IMG/VR virus record: IMGVR_UViG_3300021178_000044
Span: 1-23,346 of that record
DNA: 23,346 nt
Strand: one strand, 5' to 3'
From: a virus
The notes under the pieces were generated by a model, which saw only the letters and a program-made list of their open reading frames with translations, did no database searches and was not told the origin of the DNA. Both the position numbers and the translations under genes were made by a program. Positions within the stretch are counted from its first letter, which is position 1, and each line of letters starts with the position of its first letter. This document shows positions 6,401 through 23,346 of this stretch, in pieces.

Positions 6401-6513
6401 GGGGCTGCGCCAACGGGTGCATAAGCCCGCAAGGAAGTCAGCAGTTCTTCTTTAATGCGGTGCCGTTCCAGAGTATAACTCCGTCACTAGCCGGTGGATT
6501 CAGCTTCAACTGA
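3427..6513 (+). CDS. Large secreted beta-helix fibre, possible polysaccharide-binding or depolymerase protein
   Basis: 1028 residues with a classical signal peptide (MRLAVFLAALWFSSAASA, cleavage near residue 20). Residues about 30-320 are Thr/Ser/Asn-rich beta sequence. Residues 332-411 resemble the region between the G8 domain and the beta-helix of CEMIP/TMEM2-type proteins: W..GD.IVL, then FAHLG, then AEVLLLTGNVKIIG. Residues about 430-720 look like a right-handed parallel beta-helix, with many short Asn/Gly turns. A module containing FTGSIAGTILTVTG (about 815-830) is common in phage fibres. The C-terminal domain (about 890-1010) looks like a carbohydrate-binding beta sandwich. The protein ends PFQSITPSLAGGFSFN, a motif repeated after the next gene. 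More than 15 cysteines are present, often as close pairs, which suggests an oxidising location. No catalytic residues can be assigned. It could equally be a passive adhesin. Confidence 0.7.
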   Translation: MRLAVFLAALWFSSAASAATLISTATGNINATGTWSVVDTTGTNALLNSETANTALTTSPVASSTFTPAAETLTAIGVKLASVAASPTGTMTIKLANSTSAGNRECTQTVNVTDLVTASTATLEGGWVILTCAASPNGTDNYTINANTSSGSQVNLFSLATTNWSRLLVTNGTKASGPAAGDSFLVYGNLTGAGTHNAFTVTVNTTSNINYGNVANTMVAPSIAIGQFGTLAFGTTASTNFTMEVAGPLVCYNGGTFTVGTAATPIPGTSTAILTLNTTVEGDTGITNRNGCTFNTNGSPRTVGKNVVQTHLTANLSAGAVTSIPVADDTGWLSGDVIVLTATDVNTGASHSEKLTLTGPATATSLPVSATLSFAHLGRNVSYLSVNNGLAYSMDNKAEVLLLTGNVKIIGSGDATPGYIYCGPTANCSMAGTELQWISGNSAGKYGLDSDTIPGGIFSFTNSSFHDSRHAGIILAETQTNWGGTSGAPATVQNVVLYNVAEAGGSAPFTGVALSIASFISNPNWLIDHVTIDTYGASSDALFLRAFAGTLTNYVASSGGSNSNGLACQTPGAGLGRYLGTWGPLTFHSNGGFDTDCGANGTYTQNCIAGVYSYHSYGPFLTGSNMNWCIDPLYSLGNTVFQAGSKGFVIMTMRNGFLANDAASGARPPFGIDESFNSLEFDNEELCPTQTVTIAQSTGTATGQTVFASCAGSGSATSITPVNDVGVVSSAPNTLHAVGRNSPFLSSADATLPGLLGQQLMSADSFACSDWINNHKCFMTYGVTSNDSVIFHSANAPYSTRLTPQITRFTGSIAGTILTVTGTPYPAISVTPNLPILGTSAPLLAGTTIIGVGTGTGGSGTYTVNNSQTISSETMTGPLGRLQSAPLYQGVKVAVVKGNTANVCVWVRESLNTDAGGVTYNGDAPRLIERANPYMGVQSDTVLATYTASAGTWQQLCSTTAVAANDGEFEFVVDADQTATSNAGGWVNIADWGCANGCISPQGSQQFFFNAVPFQSITPSLAGGFSFN

Positions 6514-6529
6514 GAAATGGGAGATTTGA

Positions 6530-6847
6530 ATGGTCAAAAAGCCCCGCGTCGCTATCATAATCACAGCCCTGATCGCCTATACGGTTGCAGTAGGCGCCAT
6601 GATGGCGGCCCCAATCAAGCCGGGTGGAACTGGAATCTACGGAAAGATGAAAGTGGTTCTGTCCTCGCCTCAATATGTTGGGGATGACAAAACGAGGGCG
6701 TGTGTTATCGAAACTGTCCCCAATGATGGTCTTGGTTCAGCAGTCTTTATCGACAACTGCAATACTTCGAATGTCGGCATTGGGGTCGATAACAGCAGTC
6801 GGCAAGTGTGGGTTGCCGTCCCACCTTCGGCTCAGTTTACCCCGTAA
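6530..6847 (+). CDS. Small exported or membrane-anchored protein, probably frameshifted at its 3' end
   Basis: 105 residues preceded by GGGAG six bases before the start. Residues 8-27 (AIIITALIAYTVAVGAMMAA) form an uncleaved anchor or signal peptide. Residues about 28-105 form a small beta-rich domain with two cysteines (ACVIE and DNCNTS). The frame stops with TAA at 6845-6847, directly after QFTP. Skipping one base there (+1 frame) continues as KYGTPFQSVTPSLNGGFAFN, which matches the C-terminus of the previous fibre. Either a single base was gained (for example in the CCCC run at 6840-6843), or a +1 frameshift at the stop codon extends the protein to about 125 residues. Function unknown; its position and ending suggest a partner or short relative of the upstream fibre. 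Confidence 0.6.
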   Translation: MVKKPRVAIIITALIAYTVAVGAMMAAPIKPGGTGIYGKMKVVLSSPQYVGDDKTRACVIETVPNDGLGSAVFIDNCNTSNVGIGVDNSSRQVWVAVPPSAQFTP

Positions 6848-6908
6848 GTATGGTACGCCGTTCCAGAGCGTGACTCCGAGTCTAAACGGCGGCTTTGCGT
6901 TCAATTGA
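6846..6908 (+). other. Orphan C-terminal coding segment (+1 frame continuation of the 6530 gene)
   Basis: Sixty-three bases that encode KYGTPFQSVTPSLNGGFAFN and a stop in the frame +1 to the preceding gene. The last 51 bases (6858-6908) align without gaps to 6463-6513, the end of the large fibre gene. Eleven of 16 residues are identical, including the pattern PFQS.TPSL.GGF.FN. There is no start codon or ribosome-binding site of its own, so it is either a broken tail or a frameshift extension. Confidence 0.6.
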
Positions 6909-7253: not shown

Positions 7254-7433
7254 TTGGGACAACAACCGCTCGGGAGCCCGACTGGTGGTGATCGCAGGCC
7301 GGCGGTTGCCGCATGTCGTTATCCGGTCTGCCCGGACCAATGGGCTTGCTGGGGAGCAGATCGGTGCCTGTATCCCTTTCACAGAGCGACGGATGACCGC
7401 TCGGAGCCTAAGCAACCGCAAGCGAAGCCTTGA
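7254..7433 (+). CDS. 59-residue cysteine-containing protein with TTG start
   Basis: A strong GGAGGAA (7244-7250) lies four bases before TTG 7254, and the frame is open for 59 codons to TGA 7431-7433. The product carries four cysteines in the order CRYPVC, then WAC, then DRC (C-x4-C-x5-C-x5-C, residues 21-38), with two tryptophans and a final basic Pro/Gln tail. The spacing would allow a small metal site but matches no family I can name. Its TGA overlaps the TTG start of the portal gene (TTGA at 7430-7433), so it probably delivers ribosomes to the portal. Without this gene the 185 bases before the portal would be empty in an otherwise packed operon. Confidence 0.5.
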   Translation: MGQQPLGSPTGGDRRPAVAACRYPVCPDQWACWGADRCLYPFHRATDDRSEPKQPQAKP

Positions 7434-9268
7434 CCCAAATGGCCTACATCGCCCCCGACAGCCTCGACGGCCCGACCCTCCTCTCCCGCCTTCACGCGAC
7501 CTCATCCGACAAGCCGGATAAGGAGGCCGAGGACTGGAACCGCATCTTCACCCACCTCGAAGCCCGCCTCGGGATGCTGCGCAACTGGCGCTATTCCTGG
7601 TGGGCCTATTGGGCGATCCTGGCGCAGTTCTTCAATCCACGGCGCTACCACTGGGTCATCGTCGCCAACCGCATGTGGAAGGGCTCGCCCCTCAACGATT
7701 CGATCATCGATTCGACCGGACTGCAGGCGCTGCGGACCTGCGCCCACGGTATGTGGTCGGGGCTCACCAACCCCTCGCGCCCGTGGCTCAAGCTCGACAA
7801 GGCGTTACCGTGGATGGAATTGGATCCCGACGCCAAGGACTGGATCGACGACACCACGCAACGCTGCGAAACTGTTCTGGCGCAGTCCAACTTCTATACG
7901 GAGATGGCACAGGCCTTCGAGGACCTGACGCTGTTCGGCACCGCGCCCCCGATCATCTACGAGGACGCGGAGGACGTGATCCACCTCTACCTGCCGTGCG
8001 CGGGGGAATACTATCTCGCCTGTGGCTCGCGGAACGAGCCCAACACGCTCTACCGCGAGTTCGCCTATACGGTGGCGCAGATTGTGGAGTGGTGCGCGTC
8101 CAATAATGGGACCTGCCCACAGCAGGTCAAGAAGCAGTATCAGGAAGGCTCGCTCGACATCGAGCATGTGGTCTGCCACGCGATCCAACCCAATGCCCCG
8201 CTCTCGGGTAAGGGCTGGACCGAAAGCGGCAGCGAAGTTCACATCGTGCCGGCACGCTTCCCATGGTGCGAGGTCTATTGGCTCAAGGGCAACAAGACCG
8301 CGGCGCCCTTGTCCAAGCGCGGATTCCTCGAGCAGCCGTTCATCCCGATGCGCTGGTCGAAGGTATCGAACGACGCCTATGGCCGCTCCCCCTGCATGGA
8401 TGCGCTCGGCGACAACAAGCAGGTGCAGGCCGAGACGCGGCGCAAGGGCGAGTTCATCGAGAAGGGCGTGCGGCCCCCGATGGGTGCGGACGTGGAGCTC
8501 GACAACAAGCCCTATTCGATCATGCCGGGGCAAGTGACGTTCTTCTCGACCGGCAACGGGCAGAACAAGAAATTCTTCCCGCTGTTCGAGGTCAACGCCG
8601 CGTGGCTCCAAGGCATCACCGCCGACATCGACATGGTGAACAAGCGTCTCGAAAAGTGCCTGTTCGTCGACATCTTCATGGCCATCACGCAAATGCAGGG
8701 CGTGCAGCCGCGCAACGAATTGGAGCTGACCAAGCGGGACCTCGAACGCCTCCAAGTGCTCGGCCCCGTGATCGAGATTGTCGAGGGGCAACTCGCGATC
8801 GCCATCCGCCGCGTGCTCGCCATCATGGACCGCCGCGGCATGCTCAAGCCCAGGCCCAAGAGCCTGCAGGGATTGCCGCTCAAGATCAGCTTCATCTCCA
8901 TCATGCGCTTGGCGCAGAAGTCGGCGCAGGCTGTGGCGATGAAGGATATGTTCGCCACGATGGGCGAACTGTCGTCCGCTGCAAAAGCGGCCGGTATACC
9001 GGACCCTCTACGCAAGATGAAACTTGACCAAGCGGCCGAAGATTATGGCGATGCGACCAACTTCCCGAGTCATCTGTGGTGGACGCCGCAGGAGGTGCTG
9101 GAGCACGACCAGGCGCGAGCAAAGGCGATGTCGCAGCAGCAGGCGCCTGGGCAGGCGATGGCGGCGGTGACGGCGGCTAAGACGTTGAGCGAGACGCCGC
9201 TGGGTGGGAATTCGGCGCTGTCGGCTTTGACCGGTGGGGCTGGTGGTGGAGCGGCTGCTGCGGCATGA
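7430..9268 (+). CDS. Portal (bacteriophage head-to-tail connecting) protein
   Basis: Dodecameric ring at the capsid vertex through which DNA is packaged and ejected; terminase docks on it and the tail attaches to it. At 612 residues it has the usual size of the podovirus-type head-tail connector family (T7 gp8-like, as in BPP-1). Recognisable blocks are WWAYWAILAQFFNPRRYHW (about 57-75), STGLQALRTCAHGMWSGLTN (about 93-112), and a segment centred on YGRSPCMDALGDNKQVQ then EKGVRPPMGADVEL (about 320-356). The C-terminal 50 residues are Ala/Gln/Gly-rich. The TTG at 7430 overlaps the previous stop; ATG at 7439 is an alternative start nine bases on. The stop overlaps the next start as ATGA. Confidence 0.92.
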   Translation: MTQMAYIAPDSLDGPTLLSRLHATSSDKPDKEAEDWNRIFTHLEARLGMLRNWRYSWWAYWAILAQFFNPRRYHWVIVANRMWKGSPLNDSIIDSTGLQALRTCAHGMWSGLTNPSRPWLKLDKALPWMELDPDAKDWIDDTTQRCETVLAQSNFYTEMAQAFEDLTLFGTAPPIIYEDAEDVIHLYLPCAGEYYLACGSRNEPNTLYREFAYTVAQIVEWCASNNGTCPQQVKKQYQEGSLDIEHVVCHAIQPNAPLSGKGWTESGSEVHIVPARFPWCEVYWLKGNKTAAPLSKRGFLEQPFIPMRWSKVSNDAYGRSPCMDALGDNKQVQAETRRKGEFIEKGVRPPMGADVELDNKPYSIMPGQVTFFSTGNGQNKKFFPLFEVNAAWLQGITADIDMVNKRLEKCLFVDIFMAITQMQGVQPRNELELTKRDLERLQVLGPVIEIVEGQLAIAIRRVLAIMDRRGMLKPRPKSLQGLPLKISFISIMRLAQKSAQAVAMKDMFATMGELSSAAKAAGIPDPLRKMKLDQAAEDYGDATNFPSHLWWTPQEVLEHDQARAKAMSQQQAPGQAMAAVTAAKTLSETPLGGNSALSALTGGAGGGAAAAA

Positions 9269-9457: not shown

Positions 9458-9715
9458 CTAGCGACCAGCTTCGGCATCCTCGCTCGTGCACTCAATATCC
9501 CGGATACGGTCTATGAGGTGCACCACAGGCTCTCGCGCCCAATCCTCCATGCGGAGTAACGCGTTGCGGTCGCGAATGGCCCGCACATCGCACCGCACGC
9601 GGATGGTTCGATTGCAGTAGATTACCGATTTGGCCTTGATCTTGACTAAGCTTGTTGCCGCCAGTAGTGATGCGGACAAGCCAGCAAGAAATCCGCGCCT
9701 GGACAGATCAAGCAT
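9458..9715 (-). CDS. Tat-leader protein carrying a diverged major-capsid C-terminal segment
   Basis: 85 residues, last gene of the minus-strand cluster. The start at 9715 is preceded by GGGAGGGGGGA and overlaps the previous stop. Residues 5-22 (SRRGFLAGLSASLLAATS) form a textbook twin-arginine signal. From residue 31 the sequence aligns without gaps to residues 293-325 of the major capsid protein at 12779-13825, with 21 of 33 identical (Y.NRT.R..CDV.A.RDRN.LLR.ED.A..P). Of the 21 identical residues 13 use different codons, so this is an old protein-level relationship, not a recent DNA copy. The capsid family's following GIPIR-like strand is degraded. It ends four bases from the stop of the convergent HiPIP-like gene. 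Tat-leader small proteins occur in other phages, mostly without known role. Confidence 0.7.
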   Translation of the reverse strand: MLDLSRRGFLAGLSASLLAATSLVKIKAKSVIYCNRTIRVRCDVRAIRDRNALLRMEDWAREPVVHLIDRIRDIECTSEDAEAGR

Positions 9716-10052
9716 TCCCCCCTCCCAACTTCCGCACCAACTCCGCATCCCCCTGCGCCGCCGGCATCGGCCGTACCGGAATCTTCCCCAACTCCTCAAC
9801 GAACGCATCCTTGCAGCGCTTGCGCAGCTGAAGGATCGGCCCGATGTCGCCGGCCGACAAGGTGGCCCCGACCGCGCTGCCGAACAGTCCGCAGATCATG
9901 ACCATCACCTCTTCGACGGGAATCTGCGGCATGGAGCGCAGCACACCGTTGACGACGCAGACGATGGCGGGCTGGATGAAGCTTTTCATCCAGGCGCGGA
10001 CCTCGGCAACCGAGGGGGCCCGGGCGGCGCGGCCGTTCATTTCTTCGGACAT
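9708..10052 (-). CDS. Hypothetical phage protein, helical, 114 residues
   Basis: Starts MSEEMNGRAARAP at 10052; a longer frame exists upstream, but this start overlaps the end of the previous gene and avoids a long arginine/proline-rich shadow stretch. The middle contains a hydrophobic helix-rich region (QPAIVCVVNGVLRSMPQIPV, then VMVMICGLFGSAVGATL). The segment DIGPILQLRKRCKDAFVEEL follows, and the tail is GGGNA. It resembles helper proteins encoded near phage structural genes in alphaproteobacteria, in which a Q.R...K..F.EG-like helix is conserved; I cannot name a function. It is the fourth gene of the minus-strand cluster and its stop overlaps the next start by eight bases. Confidence 0.6.
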   Translation of the reverse strand: MSEEMNGRAARAPSVAEVRAWMKSFIQPAIVCVVNGVLRSMPQIPVEEVMVMICGLFGSAVGATLSAGDIGPILQLRKRCKDAFVEELGKIPVRPMPAAQGDAELVRKLGGGNA

Positions 10053-10252
10053 AGCGTCTCCAATGTCTGCCGCATCTTGTTGACCGTGATGCTCTCGTGC
10101 GCGAGCATGTGGAACAGCAACTCGCGCTGGTCTGCGGGAGCGAGGCTGCGGAAGCGCTTGGCCTGCTCCAGGATGACGGGGTGCGAGATACTGCGGTATT
10201 GTTCGAGCACTTCGGCGGGGTGCTTGGAGTCGATGGTGCCGGTTTCGCTCAT
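10037..10252 (-). CDS. Hypothetical 71-residue helical protein
   Basis: Begins MSETGTIDSKHPAEVLEQYR and is predicted to be almost entirely helical, with alternating charged and hydrophobic residues (VILEQAKRFRSLAPADQREL, then LLFHMLAHESITVNKMRQTL). It ends CPKK. Its start overlaps the stop of the HTH gene as ATGA, and its own end overlaps the next gene by 16 bases, so all of these are read from one transcript. No family recognised. Given the HTH gene before it, a small regulatory partner is possible but not shown. Confidence 0.6.
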   Translation of the reverse strand: MSETGTIDSKHPAEVLEQYRSISHPVILEQAKRFRSLAPADQRELLFHMLAHESITVNKMRQTLETLCPKK

Positions 10253-10488
10253 CCCACTCTCGCCTTCCTCGCCTCGCTCCAGGCGTCCAGGTCATCCTTG
10301 AGATACTTGACCGTCTTCCACCCGAAGCGGGTGAAGGCGGGGCCTTTGCCGGCGTTGTTGTTGGAGGCCATGCGGGCCAAGGTGGTCTCCGTCATGGCGA
10401 AGCCCTTGAGGCGAAGATAGTGCGCGGCGGCCTTGCGGGTGAGCCAGACTTCGGGCGGTGTGTTCGTGGTGGTGTTTGTTTGGGTCAA
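10249..10488 (-). CDS. Excisionase/AlpA-like helix-turn-helix DNA-binding protein
   Basis: 79 residues. The core reads W-L-T-R-K-A-A-A-H-Y-L with TLARMASN as a turn and recognition helix. Then come GKGPAFTRFGWKTVKYLKDD and LDAW. That is the layout of the HTH_17/AlpA/Xis family of winged-helix proteins: W/L..KEAA.YL, a second helix, G.GP.F...G....Y...DLD.W. Such proteins act as small transcription regulators or as recombination directionality factors. No integrase is in view, so regulation of this cluster or of the divergent late genes is the better guess. The start is TTG 10488, overlapping the previous stop as TTGA; no other start precedes the domain. Confidence 0.75.
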   Translation of the reverse strand: MTQTNTTTNTPPEVWLTRKAAAHYLRLKGFAMTETTLARMASNNNAGKGPAFTRFGWKTVKYLKDDLDAWSEARKARVG

Positions 10489-12778: not shown

Positions 12779-13825
12779 ATGGCGACTGGCCAATGGCCGA
12801 CCCTGGCCGACCTCACCTCCCGCAGCGATTCGATGGGCAAGCAGCACATCATCGCCGAGATGCTCTCGCAATCGGTGGTGCTCCACAAGGATACGCCCTA
12901 TCGCGAATCCTCCGAGATGGGCGGCCATGAGTTCAGCTTCCGGGAATCGATTCCGGCTGGTGCCTGGCGCCAGATCAACATGGGCATCCCCTACGCCAAG
13001 AGCACAACCGGGAAGTCGCGCATCGGCCTTGGCACGCTGGAAGCCTATAGCCAGGTTGACCGCCTCCTGGCCGAAATGTCAGGCGACGTCGAGCGCTTTC
13101 GGGAGGGCGAGGATGTCTCGTTCTTCGAGGGCATGGGACAGACCTGGGAGGAAAACACCTGGTACGGCAACACGGCCGCCACGCCTGCGCAGTTCATGGG
13201 TCTGTCGGCATTCTACAACACCGTTTCTACCGTCAATGCGCAGAACGCGGCGAATTGCATCGACGGCGGCGGCACGGGATCCTCCAATCTTTCCTTCTGG
13301 CTCATCGGATGGGGTCTGCGCACGATCTTCATGTGCTATCCGCGCTCGACCAAGGCGGGTTTGGCGATGGAGGATAAGGGCGACACCGTGCCCGGCTTCG
13401 ACTCGCTCGGCAACCGGTTCGAGGCCTATACTTCATGGTTCCGCCAAATGGGTGGCATCTGCCCGCAGGACTGGCGCTACGGCGTGCGCATCCCCAACGT
13501 CGATGTGACCAATGCCGGCCTCGCTGGCCCCAACGCGATCGATATCTTCGCCACCATGCGCCAGGCCATGTTGCTGATGCCGACCCTGACGGCACAGTCC
13601 TCTGGCATCACCGAGGTCGACGCGCCTGACGAATCGTCGCCGGGCATCCGCCCGGTCTGGTACATGAACAGGACCGGCAGGCACTGGTGTGATGTTCAGG
13701 CGATGAGGGACCGCAACGTTCTGTTGCGCCTTGAGGACTACGCCGGCAAGCCGACCATGGGCATCGACGAGATACCCATCCGCGTCTCCGACCAACTCCT
13801 CACCACGGAAGCCCGCGTCGTCTGA
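12779..13825 (+). CDS. Major capsid protein (BPP-1 Bbp17-like)
   Basis: 348-residue shell protein of the HK97 fold class, forming hexamers and pentamers of the head. A good AAGGAGAG precedes the start. The N-terminus (WPTLADLTSRSDSMGKQHII) and the segment HEFSFRESIPAGAWRQINMG are typical of this podovirus-type capsid family. So are EGEDVSFFEGMGQTWEENTWYGN and the C-terminal block YMNRTGRHWCDVQAMRDRN. IPIRVSDQLLTTEARVV closes the protein, the characteristic GIP.R..D.LL.TEA.V ending. It lies between the scaffold-like gene and the Bbp16-like cement gene, the same order as in BPP-1. A diverged partial relative of its C-terminus is encoded on the minus strand at 9461-9625. Confidence 0.9.
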   Translation: MATGQWPTLADLTSRSDSMGKQHIIAEMLSQSVVLHKDTPYRESSEMGGHEFSFRESIPAGAWRQINMGIPYAKSTTGKSRIGLGTLEAYSQVDRLLAEMSGDVERFREGEDVSFFEGMGQTWEENTWYGNTAATPAQFMGLSAFYNTVSTVNAQNAANCIDGGGTGSSNLSFWLIGWGLRTIFMCYPRSTKAGLAMEDKGDTVPGFDSLGNRFEAYTSWFRQMGGICPQDWRYGVRIPNVDVTNAGLAGPNAIDIFATMRQAMLLMPTLTAQSSGITEVDAPDESSPGIRPVWYMNRTGRHWCDVQAMRDRNVLLRLEDYAGKPTMGIDEIPIRVSDQLLTTEARVV

Positions 13826-21529: not shown

Positions 21530-21945
21530 CGGGCGCGGGTCGCAGGCTCGATACGCTCCTGTCGGCCGCCATCGAGCGATTCGGAGGAGACGTGCCCCAG
21601 GAACTCAAACGCCCGATCGAGCTCGCCGCCCTCAAGGGGCGGCTTGAGCGTGCGCAGCGCGTTCACGGGCGCATCGCCGATACCGGCAAGCGCTACGATA
21701 AGGTGCTCGACGCGATCGAGGAGAAGGAGGCGCAGGCCGCCTCCCACGTGGGCTATCTCGAGCAATACGACCAGGCGCTCGGCCAGACCATCAAGGAGAT
21801 GATCGGCGGGTCCAATTTTCCTCCCGAGGGGGCCGATGGCCCCCATATCGCCACCAATGGCTCGGGAGAGGCGCTTGAGCCTGCTGCTACGTCAAAACCT
21901 GACGTAGCAAGTACCATTGCCGCGAACGAAGGTCGAACGGGATGA
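21526..21945 (+). CDS. Hypothetical helical (coiled-coil) protein
   Basis: 139 residues with a TTG start overlapping the previous stop; no upstream ATG fits. Residues about 5-100 are mostly helical, with heptad-like spacing: AIERFGGDVPQELKRPIELA, then LKGRLERAQRVHGRI, then YDKVLDAIEEKEAQAASHVG. Residues about 80-92 are QYDQALGQTIKEM. The last 45 residues are Gly/Ala/Ser/Pro-rich. No family recognised. Its stop overlaps the start of the final fibre gene as ATGA at 21942-21945, so it is co-translated with that gene. This could make it a fibre chaperone or trimerisation helper, though nothing in the sequence tests that. Confidence 0.6.
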   Translation: MTGAGRRLDTLLSAAIERFGGDVPQELKRPIELAALKGRLERAQRVHGRIADTGKRYDKVLDAIEEKEAQAASHVGYLEQYDQALGQTIKEMIGGSNFPPEGADGPHIATNGSGEALEPAATSKPDVASTIAANEGRTG

Positions 21946-23346
21946 GAACGATTCTGGTACTGCTGATTCTGTCCTTTTCGACCCTGGCCTTCGGCCAAGG
22001 CACCCTTCTGCAAGGCAGCGCCACCACGGCGGGCCACGTCCCCGAATACGTCACCCAGGGCACCGGGCAGGCCGTCGTCATCGATGCGGGCGGTGCTGGC
22101 GGCGGCGGGCCCGGTGTTGGGCTCTCCGAGCTCGGCATCACGGCGCGCGGCACCGGCACGCCGCCCTTCATCGGGCAGGGCACCGGCCCGTTCGGGACCA
22201 ATGACTGCGACTACGACGCGCCGACCACCAACGCGACCGGCTACCACTTCCTTTGCTTTTCCGCCAACGTCTCAGGCGCTGGCTTGATTGCCTATGGCGC
22301 GAGCGGCGGCCAGCCCCAGCAACCGCTCGCGCTCAATCTCAACGGCACGGTCTATCAGTTTCCCTTCGCGATCAGCGGCATCGTCGGGCCACCGACCAGC
22401 ATCGTCAACGATGTCGCGTGCTGGAACAATCTCGTTGGCACATTGCTCAAGGATTGCGGCCCCTTCATCGCCGGCCCAGTCAGCAGCACCGTCAACGACG
22501 TGGCGTGCTGGAACAACACGACCGGAACGGCGCTCAAGGACTGCGGCGTGGCCGTCACCGGCCCCGTCAGCAGCACCGTCAACGACGTGGCCTGCTGGAA
22601 CAACACCTCCGGCACCTTGCTCAAGGATTGCGGGGGTGGTGCCGACCTCAATATCCTCAACAGCCAGACTGCCAACTATTCGGTTGCCGCGACCGACTGC
22701 GGAAAAACAATTCAACTCGGCACGGGGGCGACGGGATTCTTCACGCTTACCTTTCCCTCGGTATCCGGGTTCTCGACGACGTGCTCGGTCAAGGTCATAG
22801 ATGGCGATACAGGGCGCGGCAAGGCCATCGCTGGCCTCACGGGCATCACCAAGCTCTATCCGGGCCAGACCTTTACCGCCAAGATCGTCAACGGCGCGTG
22901 GGCGCTGTTCGACAAACCGCCGCGGTGGCTTGTCCCCAGCAGCCTGAACGTCTACGTCGACTTTGGCGCCGGCACCGACACCAACGATTGCCTTGCCGCT
23001 GGAACTGGTGCCTGCGCAACCCCTAACCAGGCGATGACGGATATCGCGCGCCTCTACGACAACGAAGGTGCCATCACCATCCAGTGGGGCTGCATTGCCG
23101 GCACGCCATGCACGTGGGGCGACACCGTGATGTTCGGCGCGCAGTCCTATGTGGGCAAGGGAACCATCATCCTGCAGGGCGACATCATCACCCCTGATAA
23201 TTTCCTGATCAATTGCACCGCTTGCAGCAACACCGGGGTGTTCACATTTTCAAATTCGCCCGGCGGGCAGGCTGGTGGAATATGGACCGTTCAAGGATTC
23301 AAGCTCGCTTCCGGCAAGACCGGCGAGTTCGGCCTGTTCGTGGGAT
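21942..23346 (+). CDS. Secreted tail-fibre protein with three repeats and beta-helix, 3' end missing
   Basis: Open from ATG 21942 to the right edge (468 codons) without a stop. A Sec signal peptide (MRTILVLLILSFSTLAFGQG) is followed by GTGT-type turns. Three 29-residue repeats at 22386-22646 come next. Each is a cysteine-bearing variant of the fibre linker usually written as N.I.RFDGTTGKLLQDSG. Then comes the VAATDCGKTIQLG to STTCSVKVID domain, which also occurs in the 16287 gene. After it, VYVDFGAGTDTNDCLAAGTG marks the usual entry into a right-handed beta-helix. The visible part of the helix has further cysteine pairs (GCIAGTPC, NCTAC). This looks like a host-binding or sugar-degrading fibre; the catalytic or receptor part would lie beyond the window. 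Confidence 0.8.
   Translation, partial: MRTILVLLILSFSTLAFGQGTLLQGSATTAGHVPEYVTQGTGQAVVIDAGGAGGGGPGVGLSELGITARGTGTPPFIGQGTGPFGTNDCDYDAPTTNATGYHFLCFSANVSGAGLIAYGASGGQPQQPLALNLNGTVYQFPFAISGIVGPPTSIVNDVACWNNLVGTLLKDCGPFIAGPVSSTVNDVACWNNTTGTALKDCGVAVTGPVSSTVNDVACWNNTSGTLLKDCGGGADLNILNSQTANYSVAATDCGKTIQLGTGATGFFTLTFPSVSGFSTTCSVKVIDGDTGRGKAIAGLTGITKLYPGQTFTAKIVNGAWALFDKPPRWLVPSSLNVYVDFGAGTDTNDCLAAGTGACATPNQAMTDIARLYDNEGAITIQWGCIAGTPCTWGDTVMFGAQSYVGKGTIILQGDIITPDNFLINCTACSNTGVFTFSNSPGGQAGGIWTVQGFKLASGKTGEFGLFVG
22386..22646 (+). repeat. Three tandem 87-base (29-residue) repeats in the last fibre gene
   Basis: Units at 22386-22472, 22473-22559 and 22560-22646, in frame. Shared core is VNDVACWNN....G..LKDCG. 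Units 2 and 3 begin with the identical GPVSSTVNDVACWNNT; unit 1 is more diverged (GPPTSIVNDVACWNNLVGTL). Every unit carries two cysteines, at ACW and DCG. The 1343 gene contains one related copy near its N-terminus (NDCAKW, then IVDSGG). Confidence 0.85.

Follow-up and report, generated by a model that had tools for sequence, protein, structure and literature searches.

The small antisense gene and its surroundings

We analysed a stretch of 23,346 bases from an IMG/VR virus record (the window), in which a small minus-strand gene lies between the genes for the portal and the major capsid protein (MCP). The features at and around this gene are:

7430–9268, plus strand: portal / head-tail connecting protein (PF12236, phrog_332)
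9458–9715, minus strand: Tat-leader gene, 85 residues, C-terminal part capsid-derived
9527–9625, minus strand: capsid-like segment, residues 31–63, 21/33 identical to MCP residues 293–325
9632–9715, minus strand: Tat-type leader, residues 1–28, SRRGFL motif and hydrophobic stretch (from the sequence, an alignment and a TAT_signal_seq match that is under the cut-off at E = 0.036)
9708–10052, minus strand: 114-residue antisense ORF adjoining the Tat gene upstream
9717–9726, minus strand: Shine-Dalgarno-like GGGAGGGGGG ahead of the start codon (ATG at 9715), read from the sequence
10037–10252, minus strand: 71-residue antisense ORF of the same cluster
10249–10488, minus strand: excisionase-like HTH gene, head of the antisense cluster
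12779–13825, plus strand: MCP of the GP7/epsilon15 type (PF20911, phrog_212)
13655–13753, plus strand: MCP codons 293–325, the homologous segment

The ORF at 9458–9715 translates to MLDLSRRGFLAGLSASLLAATSLVKIKAKSVIYCNRTIRVRCDVRAIRDRNALLRMEDWAREPVVHLIDRIRDIECTSEDAEAGR. Its ribosome-binding sequence (GGGAGGGGGG, 9726–9717) is graded strong, and its start overlaps the stop of the antisense ORF upstream. A PHROGs search with the 85-residue protein returned one weak match of unknown function (E = 0.023), and neither the protein nor the leader consensus had a match among 50,697 cultured-phage records. The modelling proposed by the first-pass annotation, which was made from the letters of the window, gave a structure with a mean pLDDT of 62 and no useful structural match.

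In phages with GP7-type capsids, the Tat gene is the last member of an antisense cluster headed by the excisionase-like HTH gene. Of 35 GP7 loci searched, 20 have the HTH gene, mostly without an accompanying Tat gene, and relatives of the 114- and 71-residue ORFs were not found in GP7 loci. Since it occurs in only a minority of the GP7 loci with the HTH gene, the Tat gene appears to be accessory cargo. This accessory distribution fits a possible role in superinfection exclusion or anti-phage defense. A scan of the antisense cluster found no promoter-like site and terminator-like sites near the level of chance, and no convincing repeats join the Tat and capsid genes in the window. Two other features of the window were recorded: an ORF at 21942–23346 (plus strand) contains three to four copies of the repeat unit GPVSSTVNDVACWNNTxGTxLKDCG, and at 6460–6908 (plus strand) a 1028-residue ORF ends in nearly the same motif as a short ORF that lies downstream of it in a different frame (FQSITPSLAGGFSFN / FQSVTPSLNGGFAFN).

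The passenger is homologous to the MCP C-terminus

Residues 31–63 of the protein had been said to align with residues 293–325 of the MCP encoded on the other strand; the two genes are separated by a gap of 3.06 kb. This alignment holds: it is gapless over nt 13655–13753, with 21 of 33 residues identical, 13 of them encoded by different codons and eight by the same codon. Local alignment extends the similarity to residues 29–79, with a score of 108 compared to 48 for the best of 2000 shuffles. The MCP itself matches PF20911 at 1.8e-86, and this Pfam GP7 model independently detects the capsid piece in the 85-residue protein (E = 0.0011; 18.4 bits, below the gathering cut-off of 27). The profile of the corresponding capsid cluster, of which the window's own MCP is part, matches at iE 2.3e-11. 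Profile searching, suggested earlier as a check, therefore leads to the capsid family, and homology between residues 29–79 and the C-terminus of the window's GP7/epsilon15-type MCP is confirmed. Only ~50 of ~313 positions are represented and the Pfam score is under the cut-off, so we do not class the 85-residue protein as a capsid protein.

The leader has the twin-arginine motif and hydrophobic stretch of Tat substrates (SRRGFLAGLSASLLAATSLV), and the SRRGFL sequence noted earlier is intact. The curated model NCBIfam TIGR01409 (TAT_signal_seq) scores it at 14.4 bits against a cut-off of 16.7 (E = 0.036). Among the family members described below, RR is present in 83 of 85 proteins and KR in the other two, and most continue after the leader with a conserved mature start, [GS]S-L-M-P-V-K, which the window copy lacks. 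Around the cleavage region the window has LAATSLVKIKAKSV in place of AAPAIV(R) followed by SLMPV(K), motifs on which family membership does not depend, and alignment shows that it also lacks the AAPAIVRAGSLMPVK form frequent in relatives. Judged by these alignments, the window's leader is a diverged form of the family leader, which resembles alphaproteobacterial Tat signals. The proteins resemble known Tat substrates (PF10518 / TIGR01409) in the RR motif, the hydrophobic stretch and, in most members, an A-x-A-like site. They differ in that their passengers are pieces of virion proteins rather than folded enzymes, and in model scores that stay under the cut-off.

Tat-leader proteins with head-protein passengers recur

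Related phages were gathered by a scan with the window's MCP. Two of these loci, L025 and L019, have an antisense ORF with a Tat-type leader inside the portal–MCP interval; the MCP C-terminal piece is clear in L025 and weak in L019. When the L025 protein was used as query, its leader, SRRGFITGLISLVAAPAIVRAGSLMPVK, turned out to be common to phages with very different passengers. A leader profile scan and motif searches of viral contigs then yielded 85 distinct Tat-leader small proteins, including the window's. This set rests on leader similarity, a single collection and 80 of 123 confirmed loci, and the contigs with Tat genes total ~2.9 Mb of DNA.

We compared the 85 proteins with profiles of five capsid clusters and two portal clusters. 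At iE < 0.01, the window protein and 29 others have both the leader and a capsid or portal piece within a single small ORF (30/85). The profiles reach this level in 2 of 1581 other small genes from these contigs and in 1 of 850 Tat proteins after shuffling. Capsid genes could be recognised in no more than 39 contigs, so 30/85 is probably an undercount. BLAST (E < 1e-3) gave a similar picture, with matches for 24 of 82 Tat proteins and 7 of 1582 control small genes. Since the starting query held a GP7 capsid piece, this count was repeated without the GP7 group, and 13 of 76 Tat proteins still match. The matched targets are major head proteins of phrog_371, 9953, 334, 283 and GP7/phrog_212 and portals of phrog_332 and 156, and passengers with matches mostly match one gene per contig. 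That the pattern turns up in five capsid clusters, at rates far exceeding the controls, suggests common selection and not a single aberrant gene. The segments are short and the contigs metagenomic, as would be expected if chance similarity or assembly chimeras had produced the pattern, but we consider this explanation extremely improbable: the controls lie near 0.1%, DNA divergence is far above the level of chimeras, and near-identical Tat genes occur in contigs of different samples (L038/L075 and L064/L065).

The expectation that relatives would share the Tat-capsid architecture was borne out in L025, L056 and L060 and, with other head pieces, in many phages. The carriers found are environmental contigs rather than known prophages. 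When genome contigs were scanned with the L025 protein, nothing was confirmed, and the strict leader pattern had no match there. Four loci (L072, L083, L097 and L132) form a sub-family: their leader reads ...SLMKLHHIPERWATVWGVGxD, and they share a longer passenger of unrecognised source, unlike the variable passengers elsewhere.

No source was recognised for 55 of the 85 passengers. Together with the conservation of the leader and SLMP-type start beside variable passengers, this is what one would expect if the leader and mature start did the work at the envelope and the passenger were an interchangeable filler tail captured by recombination. Captured tails should, however, sample all genes. 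Among the 19 passengers with any gene match at E < 1e-3, 17 match capsid or portal, which make up 3.0% of residues, and none matches terminase at E < 0.01 (terminase was identified in only 12 contigs). The Tat gene is also usually distant from the capsid gene, with a median gap of 10.5 kb, and the window copy dispenses with the conserved mature start. We therefore regard a filler tail as rather unlikely. With such a gap, the similarity cannot be put down to the two genes being neighbours. Antisense placement, which the first-pass annotation had put forward, is real in the window and yet typical only of the GP7 group; across all groups, 24 of 35 Tat genes are on the MCP strand.

Passengers are cut from many parts of the capsid

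The claim that the passenger is a capsid C-terminus is correct for the window and too narrow for the family, in which N-terminal, middle and portal pieces also occur. Pieces come from the capsid N-terminus in L064, L102, L085, L086 and L110, from the middle in L129, L062 and L036, and from the C-terminus in the window, L025, L056, L060 and L104. The C-terminal ~50 residues of GP7 are the homologous source of the window, L025, L056 and L060 passengers, and this is the likeness to the GP7 MCP family (PF20911; epsilon15 gp7, 3j40; BPP-1, 3j4u). The difference is that these Tat-leader proteins hold a fragment only and cannot form an HK97-fold subunit. Order can be scrambled: capsid positions 117–146 precede 15–44 in L124, and 359–398 precede 95–128 in L102:9998. 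L056 and L060 each have a protein that combines a capsid piece with the portal motif YGRSPAMD. Where Tat genes stand in tandem, as in L060, L085 and L102, their pieces differ or are cut differently; at L102:9615–12048 (plus strand), three Tat genes, two of them adjacent, hold the N-terminus, the C-terminus plus middle, and the C-terminus, respectively. The L102 contig has a fourth leader match elsewhere. With pieces taken from so many regions of the capsid protein, no single binding surface is implied.

One contig departs from the fragment pattern. At L319:3026–3814 (plus strand; G073, IMGVR_UViG_3300047160_011757), a Tat-type leader of another kind (MFTRRQILATGTAATVITPAIAPAATQAAPK) precedes a nearly whole GP7 capsid protein (PF20911, 60 bits), which retains most of the family length without the long spine-helix region. 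The contig has a normal capsid gene too, on the opposite strand. The predicted model resembles the BPP-1 and epsilon15 capsids, which is weak evidence since the model was built from capsid alignments. A search for further proteins of this kind returned L319 alone.

Passengers derive from the phage's own capsid family and are constrained

In all 21 clear cases, where the phage's own MCP is known and the passenger recognisable, the two fall in the same capsid cluster; L105 is ambiguous. The best-matching MCP is the phage's own for nine of 22 passengers and another phage's for 13. In a comparison restricted to a 26-residue core, none of the 74 MCPs is a better match for the window passenger than its own, but many other MCPs are closer for L025, L056 and L060. 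From the shared clusters, the best matches and the core comparison, the source is the own capsid lineage or close kin, with capture mostly long ago. Recent self-duplication in the window is ruled out by a pS of 0.82 against its own MCP. Capture from unrelated phages is ruled out by the 21 of 21 own-family cases, although another phage's MCP scores higher in 13 of 22.

Passengers arose from capsid genes in sense and in frame. At the DNA level they match the sense strand of capsid genes, and the antisense search gave one marginal match. Identity is 87.5% over 40 nt for L064 and its own capsid gene, 71% over 93 nt for L118, and 74–76% over 66–88 nt for the window against L025 and L056. A tree on 62 columns gave no resolution on a single ancestral GP7 fusion. 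Among the four GP7 passengers, pN/pS is 0.26–0.49, compared to ~0.85 in neutral simulations. This result, in line with the dN/dS check proposed earlier, shows that passenger protein sequence is under constraint, part of which may predate capture. It also agrees with the proposal, drawn from the 13 of 21 differing codons, that capsid similarity has been kept at the protein level.

These data bear on two further explanations. If passengers were decayed capsid duplicates kept by chance beside a leader and functionless, they should be short, diverged and often unrecognisable, as they are. Open frames, tandem paralogues, recurrence across five capsid clusters and the low pN/pS run against such relics, and we consider them very unlikely. 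Alternatively, membrane-held capsid and portal pieces could nucleate or anchor the phage's own prohead at the inner membrane. The match to the own capsid family in 21 of 21 clear cases is consistent with such an assembly or docking factor, as is the occurrence of capsid and portal pieces, sometimes together. This explanation is nevertheless improbable: the majority of GP7 relatives that have this HTH cluster lack the gene, the pieces vary in region and order, and another phage's MCP outscores the own in 13 of 22.

Exported mimics of head proteins as a possible function

We tentatively favour the idea that these genes encode accessory proteins that are directed to the envelope and imitate head proteins of the phage's own capsid family, in conflict with related superinfecting phages or with host capsid and portal sensors. 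Each protein would have two parts, a conserved Tat-type leader and a variable passenger taken from head proteins (the MCP and sometimes the portal). The predicted leader would direct its passenger to the periplasm or inner membrane, where the passenger may mimic the surface of a capsid or portal. Its targets could be the head proteins of related superinfecting phages or the host sensors, to which we give about equal weight. We put forward with some reserve the fuller version, in which a Tat-leader cassette is repeatedly reassorted with short capsid or portal pieces, often several per genome, into dedicated exported decoys against related phages or host sensors.

Location is the weak point of this mimic hypothesis, because head assembly and sensing take place in the cytoplasm and a Tat leader moves its passenger out. 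Membrane tethering, or hitchhiking export of a bound partner, would reconcile the two. Also against a role in conflict are the scattered origin of the pieces within the capsid protein, the large share of passengers with no recognised source, a TAT model score under the cut-off, and constraint that may partly predate capture.

Blocking of another phage's virion assembly is established for Tab (PMC10884400) and Rcm (PMC12409344). Tab is a prophage tail assembly blocker that targets the tail tape measure protein. Like the proteins proposed here, it is an accessory phage product directed at virion proteins of another phage, in a conflict at assembly; the abstract of PMC10884400 does not report it as a capsid fragment or Tat protein. 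Rcm / CpmB of SaPIs are similar in that a small protein binds the phage MCP and interferes, and differ as satellite-borne scaffold mimics with a cytoplasmic role (PMC12409344). Capsid proteins also directly trigger host defense, as with CapRel-SJ46, and Gol, a short peptide of the T4 capsid, is able to activate Lit (PMC9712102). In these systems a capsid protein or short capsid peptide is a bacterial signal and thus a plausible target for mimicry; they are host sensors, and an exported capsid decoy encoded by a phage is not described there. A search of open-licence papers on Tat, phage and capsid returned nothing relevant, which is weak evidence for novelty, and a family that joins an export signal to virion-protein pieces appears undescribed.

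If the passengers act as mimics, they would represent a new kind of conflict between phages or between phage and host, one that could be tested directly with short synthetic genes. Such mimicry would also be relevant to the question of why the copied proteins are capsid and portal, both known to be sensed by bacteria.
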